In this document: positions 11,316 through 12,087 of the stretch, piece after piece
How positions within the stretch are numbered: the first letter of the stretch is position 1
Layout of the letters: every line of letters starts with the position of its first letter
Assembly (NCBI GenBank): GCA_902537895.1
Contig: CACBCU010000002.1
Coordinates: 1-64,000 of the forward strand
Origin: an uncultured Pelagibacteraceae bacterium
GTDB lineage: Bacteria > Pseudomonadota > Alphaproteobacteria > Pelagibacterales > Pelagibacteraceae
Direction of reading: 5' to 3'
Length of the DNA stretch: 64,000 nt
Notes under the pieces: generated by a model
Databases searched by the model: none
What the model was told of the DNA's origin: nothing
What the model saw: only the letters and a program-made list of their open reading frames with translations
Translations under genes and position numbers: made by a program

Positions 11316-11594
11316 CTAAATAGATACTTTTTCAGATCTAAGTAATTTGAGCTTTTGTCTGACTCCACCTCTCCCAGAATAACCTCCAAGACCTCCATCA
11401 GATCTAATCACTCTATGACAGGGTATTTTTGGAGCATATGGGTTTTTAGCACAAGCATTTGCGACTGCACGGGCTGATTTAGGGTTTTTAATTGCAATTG
11501 CTACTTGTTTATATGTTCTTACGCTGCCCTTGGGGATAGTAATTAGATATTTCCAAACTTTTAATTGAAATTTTGTTCCAAGTAGGGATCTCAT
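11316..11594 (-). CDS. MGMT / methylated-DNA-protein cysteine methyltransferase-like protein (ATG at 11594; longer ORF start at 11633 lies in the upstream terminator)
   Basis: FQLKVWKYLITIPKGSVRTYKQVA...ANACAKNPYAPKIPCHRVIRSDGGLGGYSGG-type PCHRV active site. Confidence 0.9.
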   Translation of the reverse strand: MRSLLGTKFQLKVWKYLITIPKGSVRTYKQVAIAIKNPKSARAVANACAKNPYAPKIPCHRVIRSDGGLGGYSGRGGVRQKLKLLRSEKVSI

Positions 11595-11640
11595 AAAAAA
11601 AAACCCTGATTCTTTACACTTTTTACGGTGCAAAGATCAG
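11595..11640 (-). terminator. strong intrinsic terminator immediately upstream of the MGMT start codon
   Basis: Minus strand CTGATCTTTGCAC-cgtaaaaa-GTGTAAAGaATCAG (13 bp, one bulge) then GGG and T9. Confidence 0.85.
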
Positions 11641-11790
11641 AATTTTATGGCTCGTCGTTTTATGCGCTACCGCCGAACCTGCCACCCTGTATGTTTAGCG
11701 CTGCTTTACAGGGTTTTCTGCCCTCCAGACTTAAACCTCTCGGCCTTTCTCTGGCTGGCCAGTTAAGAGTTGCCTCTTAAGTTAAATTTA
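11595..11790 (-). ncRNA. candidate structured non-coding RNA of unknown class (or attenuator leader of the MGMT gene)
   Basis: Locally GC-enriched, no ORF; TTAAGAG-GCAA-CTCTTAA hairpin (11763-11780), ACCCTGTA/TACAGGGT 8-bp hairpin (11684-11714), pseudoknot of loop 11696-11701 with 11664-11669, terminal terminator. Confidence 0.7.
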
Positions 11791-11877
11791 CTCTATCAGA
11801 CTGAAATTTAAATTGTTATCACTAAATAGTTGTTTTTCATAATTAAATGATTTTTCTGTGAATTTCGGGGATAACTT

Positions 11878-12087
11878 CTATTTTGTAAGCAATATTAGGT
11901 AACTTATAAAGAATATAATCGCCATACTTGATAGAAATATTGTATTTATACTTTTACCAGTATTTTTATACTGAATAACACTTAAAATAATAAATCCGAT
12001 TGAACTTATTAAAAACCATACCGCAGGAATTTCTCCATCAATTGATCCCATATATTTGTAATTTAAACTATTGACATTAAAAATCAC
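11878..12087 (-). CDS. small hypothetical membrane protein (two predicted TM segments)
   Basis: ORF of 69 aa with hydrophobic segments AVWFLISSIGFIILSVI and TIFLSSMAIIFFISYLILL. Confidence 0.45.
   Translation of the reverse strand: MIFNVNSLNYKYMGSIDGEIPAVWFLISSIGFIILSVIQYKNTGKSINTIFLSSMAIIFFISYLILLTK

Follow-up and report, generated by a model that had tools for sequence, protein, structure and literature searches.

RNAs of the IMES series reportedly came to light in marine metagenomes, and they are said to be abundant in metatranscriptomes. IMES-1 (RF02034) and IMES-2 (RF02035), both marine orphan families, are described by separate models. Other known RNAs with partly similar features are 6S RNA (RF00013), a stand-alone folded RNA of similar length to that described here, and the Hfq-dependent trans-acting small RNAs (sRNAs) of other Proteobacteria, which likewise have their own promoter and an intrinsic terminator. 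The locus analyzed in this work lies on the minus strand of a 64,000-nt stretch of DNA from an uncultured Pelagibacteraceae bacterium, hereafter referred to as the window. It resembled IMES-2 in its marine origin and, over the full length (151 bits), in sequence and secondary structure, and no difference was found in the core; a terminator hairpin located 3' of the Rfam model is an addition to it. IMES-1 did not match the locus and was found in none of 61 genomes of the window's genus, in a search run without a positive control. Unlike 6S RNA, IMES-2 has no long rod with an open central bubble; unlike the Hfq-dependent sRNAs, it has no exposed conserved seed and Hfq was not found in its hosts' family (see below).

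Identity and architecture of the locus

The segment between positions 11647 and 11787 (minus strand) was identified by cmscan as RF02035, with a score of 151.2 bits (E 1.7e-39; gathering cut-off, 54.7 bits) and the whole model covered (positions 1-141 of 141). Our own covariance model, R1, scored 153.8 bits at the same place. A permissive Rfam scan of the locus returned no competing family; KRAS_3UTR and Lacto-rpoB appeared as chance matches far under the cut-off. Over the whole window, the RNAs detected by the Rfam scan were IMES-2 and four tRNAs. The preliminary description of this DNA had called the RNA unclassified unless a confident Rfam match was obtained; since one was, the label does not hold by that description's own standard. 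Nevertheless, it was right in describing a structured RNA that bears both a pseudoknot and a terminator and differs from RNase P RNA, SRP RNA, tmRNA and 6S RNA, and all the elements that it had described on the minus strand were present in the sequence at the places given. The locus is a real and well supported SAR11 copy of IMES-2, an orphan RNA class already catalogued. What is added to this class here is its hosts, its genomic settings, the covariation of the pseudoknot, the 3' hairpin and the independence from the neighboring ogt gene, together with a portable promoter module, a repeated presence and absence with empty sites, and the lack of detectable Hfq or ProQ. The features of the locus are the following:

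11780-11763, minus strand: helix 1, hairpin TTAAGAG-GCAA-CTCTTAA with a GCAA (GNRA) tetraloop; 100% of cells paired, double-sided changes in 2/7 pairs
11718..11762, minus strand: helix 2, with a symmetric internal loop GAAA/CAAG; double-sided changes in 6/11 and 3/4 pairs
11745-11734, minus strand: GNRA hairpin capping helix 2; GAGA here, GCAA in some relatives
11714-11684, minus strand: helix 3, 8 bp, ACCCTGTA/TACAGGGT; 99.2% of cells paired, double-sided changes in 8/8 pairs
11701-11696, minus strand: 5' strand of the pseudoknot (helix 5), GCGCUA; the DNA loop GCGCTA is complementary to TAGCGC
11649..11679, minus strand: helix 4; 88.4% of cells paired, most of the remainder being one conserved mismatch
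11669-11664, minus strand: 3' strand of the pseudoknot (helix 5), UAGCGC
11640-11606, minus strand: 3' terminator hairpin, 13-bp stem with a 1-nt bulge, outside the Rfam model
11603-11595, minus strand: T9 run of the terminator, immediately 5' of the ogt ATG at 11594
11316..11594, minus strand: ogt/MGMT-type gene, 92 aa (Pfam PF01035, E 3.8e-32), a neighbor only

The two strands of the pseudoknot are borne by the loops of helix 3 (5' strand) and helix 4 (3' strand). The stretch was richer in GC than its surroundings, as previously noted, with 44% (50% in the core) versus 28.5% for the window. Of the 6381 segments of 196 nt that were sampled, just 10 were equally GC-rich, and 6 of these 10 overlapped this spot. 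Its minimum free energy was -68.1 kcal/mol versus -45.6 ± 4.5 for the shuffled sequences (z = -5.05; 0/200 shuffles as good). The unusually long intergenic gap described before was also present, although its length is 283 nt (11595-11877) and not 284; of the nearest flanking ORFs, one has its end at 11878 and the other its beginning at 11594. Two mechanically called ORFs enter the stretch, a 50-codon frame on the plus strand and a TTG extension of ogt. The MGMT-type protein encoded by the latter gene has no N-terminal domain; it comprises only PF01035 and contains a PCHRV motif.

Conservation of the structure in the relatives

Complete copies were found in 212 loci and reduced to 45 representatives sharing less than 93% identity. 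The alignment (n = 45) contained the window and 44 representatives, the copy from genus g5 being excluded, and was made with MAFFT without being fitted to the structure. The structure scored was that of Rfam plus the proposed pseudoknot, 45 pairs in all. Over the 45 sequences, 94.9% of the cells were paired and double-sided changes were observed in 25 of the 45 pairs. None of 500 shuffles reached values as high in any of the five measures used, and only 32-41% of the cells remained paired when the partners were shifted by 1-3 columns. The structure is far beyond chance. Covariation among relatives had been proposed in the preliminary description as a check on the helices, and compensatory changes backed all of them as well as the pseudoknot.

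The first two hairpins that had been described correspond to Rfam helices. The pseudoknot is undrawn in the structure line of cmscan, a line that is silent on Rfam annotation elsewhere. In the pseudoknot helix 95.9% of the cells were paired, with double-sided changes at 3/6 pairs (G-C to U-A, C-G to U-A and G-C to A-U). The copies from genus g5 are very divergent (49.6 and 44.2 bits with R1; 68.7 and 62.1 bits with the Rfam model) and keep 5 of the 6 pseudoknot pairs, as GCACU/AGUGC. In these two copies (L094 and L095) helix 2 is rearranged and the pseudoknot retained, which makes them useful toward a broader family model.

Furthermore, a sixth helix was present at the 3' end, where a strong hairpin (-16 to -26 kcal/mol) was found in 45/45 representatives, with double-sided changes in the core of its stem. 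It was followed by a T-run in most representatives, a number of copies having no run of five T. Since this conserved hairpin extends beyond the Rfam model, the RNA was taken to be about 190 nt long. Both tetraloops are of the GNRA type, one being GCAA and the other GAGA exchanging with GCAA. Among the unpaired positions 17/42 were invariant, and their mean conservation was 88% versus 81% for the paired ones. The conserved unpaired bases form short runs within the internal loops and the GNRA loops, and the 5' tail is variable.

Genomic settings, upstream elements and distribution

In the window's genus, IMES-2 lies between a tyrosine-recombinase gene, often accompanied by a 69-aa ORF, and ogt; 155 loci, all of them from this genus, have ogt downstream of the RNA and on its strand. 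In the sister genera g8 and g9 it follows mnmA (53 loci) and the downstream gene, coding for a membrane protein, was convergent in the 49 loci scored. In genus g5 its neighbors are a nuclease gene on one side and, on the other, an SRAP gene in convergent orientation. Additionally, five non-carrier loci retained the recombinase-ogt neighborhood without IMES-2, as a clean empty site, and in four of them ogt started within a few nucleotides of the stop of the preceding small ORF. Because ogt abuts the small ORF in the non-carriers, its transcription in carriers probably crosses the RNA or restarts at it, and an effect of read-through on ogt is possible within the window's genus. A conserved collinear placement before ogt was observed in one genus and not in the other three. 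Hence, of the two layouts proposed beforehand, a trans-acting sRNA or a leader/attenuator of ogt, the trans-acting alternative is favored and the leader is rejected as the function of the family, given the mnmA or nuclease/SRAP neighbors elsewhere and the persistence of ogt without IMES-2.

Two other neighbors were recorded in the window. The tyrosine recombinase (PF00589; 12133-13086, plus strand) is found beside ogt in carriers and in the examined non-carriers, and is a candidate agent of the gain and loss of IMES-2 at the ogt site. The 69-aa hydrophobic ORF (11878-12087, minus strand) had no Pfam match; roughly two thirds of the ogt-type loci have it next to IMES-2.

The region upstream of the RNA contains the following elements:

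11856..11874, minus strand: element A, TTATCCCCGAAATTCACAG; in some relatives it holds TTATCCACA, a DnaA-box-like 9-mer
11817..11832, minus strand: element B, CAACTATTTAGTGATA, in which GTGATA (11822-11817) is the likely -35
11800-11795, minus strand: likely -10, TCTGAT (TATGAT in many relatives), predicted from the alignment of the upstream regions

Element A (consensus TTATCC[A/C]C..ATTCACA) was found in 44/45 representatives, starting 74-89 nt upstream of the RNA, and nowhere else in the 64 kb, on either strand, was the match as good as that of the copy at the locus (17/18; second best, 15/18). Element B (consensus CAACTAAAAAGTGATA) ended 27-30 nt before the RNA across the three genomic settings, and its GTGAT was present in nearly all representatives; at the locus it matched at 13/16, joint best in the window with one other place. 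The TCTGAT hexamer sits 16 nt after the conserved GTGATA. TAGAGT (11795-11790), previously suggested as a -10, overlaps TCTGAT, which is the hexamer that lines up with those of the relatives. Elements A and B, followed by a TATGAT-like hexamer, recurred in all three settings; therefore, the unit comprises promoter, RNA and terminator. The exact TTATCCACA, a perfect DnaA box, was present in element A of 11/45 representatives, the window's genus having mostly TTATCCCCA. Since the exact box was found in so few of them, and not as a rule in this genus, control by DnaA is treated as a lead only. A tandem element A pattern with up to 2 mismatches gave no match in 12 genomes, and this pattern also misses the known site (3 mismatches).

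Carrier genomes have one copy each. IMES-2 was detected in 100/201 genomes of the window's genus (14/29 of the near-complete ones) and in 140/297 genomes of the order (75/150 of the near-complete ones). The carriers belong to 4 of the 11 genera of the order, all from one family (Pelagibacteraceae genera g1, g5, g8 and g9), and a survey of 385 genomes from across the class found no IMES-2 outside Pelagibacteraceae. Named records among the matches listed for the 5' motif were Pelagibacteraceae, Pelagibacterales or Candidatus Pelagibacter. Near-complete IMES-2-negative genomes gave only matches of 8-17 bits with model R1; these were treated as chance, since the inspected ones resemble protein-coding sequence. 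No match was obtained in 50,697 phage records, and the single IMG/VR pattern match (L225), examined as a possible viral IMES-2, was unmatched by R1. In a tree of two flanking genes, presence and absence changed at least three times (forced, on well-supported branches) and most economically five times, a count that recombination of the flanks could inflate.

Mode of action and significance

The explanation that best accommodates these results is that IMES-2 is a stand-alone gene, equipped with a promoter and a terminator of its own, whose product is a compact RNA that may act in trans by binding a protein or a ribonucleoprotein (RNP). The family identity, the covarying structure, the independence from the neighbors, the upstream elements that move together with the RNA, the single copy and the patchy presence are directly supported; the stand-alone unit is also backed by its three unrelated genomic settings and by the divergent g5 homologues with the same architecture. 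The gene would make a compact RNA of about 190 nt with four helices, tetraloops of the GNRA type and a loop-loop pseudoknot, ending in the terminator hairpin. This folded RNA might then work as a ligand in trans that titrates or modulates the protein or RNP, and elements A and B would regulate its transcription and thereby its output; such a role, tentatively proposed by analogy with 6S or CsrB instead of with Hfq- or ProQ-assisted antisense RNAs, is plausible. The unpaired bases are conserved like the paired ones and the 5' tail is variable, a pattern that would be expected of a folded binding surface and not of a linear seed. Any partner must cope without the RNA, since about half of the near-complete SAR11 genomes have no IMES-2. 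The repeated GGA of sponges of the CsrB/RsmY type was not found in the hairpin loops (GCAA; GAGA/GCAA; pseudoknotted).

Hfq (PF17209) was found in none of 26 near-complete Pelagibacteraceae genomes, which do not include the incomplete genome of the window, and was detected in the controls, including Caulobacter. ProQ (PF04352, ProQ/FinO domain) was also found in none of the 26 genomes of the family, only E. coli being positive among the controls. With neither protein found in these genomes, antisense action assisted by one of the common chaperones is unlikely. This observation bears on the mode of action of any SAR11 sRNA. Some bacteria employ sRNAs without a chaperone, and the missing Hfq and ProQ may be compatible with unassisted base-pairing. 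An antisense sRNA pairing with mRNAs in this way would fit a stand-alone unit with promoter and terminator, but it is unlikely here, as neither the 5' tail nor the linkers are long, conservation of unpaired bases is confined to short runs in the internal and GNRA loops, and both large loops are taken up by the pseudoknot.

The invariant unpaired bases could instead form a catalytic core or tertiary contacts. That IMES-2 is a ribozyme or another catalytic or structural RNA is very unlikely, in spite of its compact pseudoknotted core, the invariant unpaired bases of its internal loops and the two GNRA loops with their GAGA/GCAA exchange: the RNA is small and retains its terminator, just half of the genomes carry it, it has no associated gene, and no known ribozyme family of Rfam was matched.

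6S RNA gave no match at the locus (E up to 10) or in the window's genome at E 10, and the 6S model was negative in all of 61 genomes of the genus, the Caulobacter control being positive; 6S RNA has been either lost in this genus or has become too divergent for the model. In the intergenic survey of HTCC1062, tmRNA, SRP RNA and RNase P RNA were reported and 6S RNA was unmentioned (PMC2704228). Both observations would suit IMES-2 as a functional replacement of 6S RNA in SAR11. Nevertheless, this is a minority reading of scant probability, because IMES-2 does not form a long rod opened by a central bubble as 6S does, and half of the genomes have neither RNA; moreover, divergent 6S RNAs can escape the Rfam model, and the absence of 6S may therefore be only apparent.

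A cis-acting leader of ogt, with a terminator switched to permit transcription into the repair gene, is hardly credible even though the T-run finishes at the ogt ATG, ogt follows on the same strand in the 155 loci and lies directly behind the small ORF in non-carriers, since the downstream gene is convergent in g8/g9 and in g5, ogt persists in strains without IMES-2, no alternative antiterminator pairing was evident and the terminator takes no part in the pseudoknot.

The stand-alone, protein- or RNP-binding RNA is thus the preferred reading. A broader version of it is quite unlikely: in SAR11 lineages where Hfq, ProQ and 6S are not detected, IMES-2 would be a portable, promoter-bearing global regulator, repeatedly gained and lost whole, and the DnaA-box-like element A might link it to replication or growth.

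These results fix the hosts of IMES-2 as Pelagibacteraceae, which count among the most abundant cells of the ocean and of which some carry the RNA and close relatives do not. They exclude the regulation of ogt as its general role and make Hfq- or ProQ-dependent mechanisms unlikely. The full gene of about 190 nt, with its promoter elements, is now defined for testing, and its function can be tested by comparing natural pairs of carriers and non-carriers, the latter showing an empty site where the former have the RNA. IMES-2 is a portable stand-alone gene, not a switch for a neighboring DNA-repair gene.
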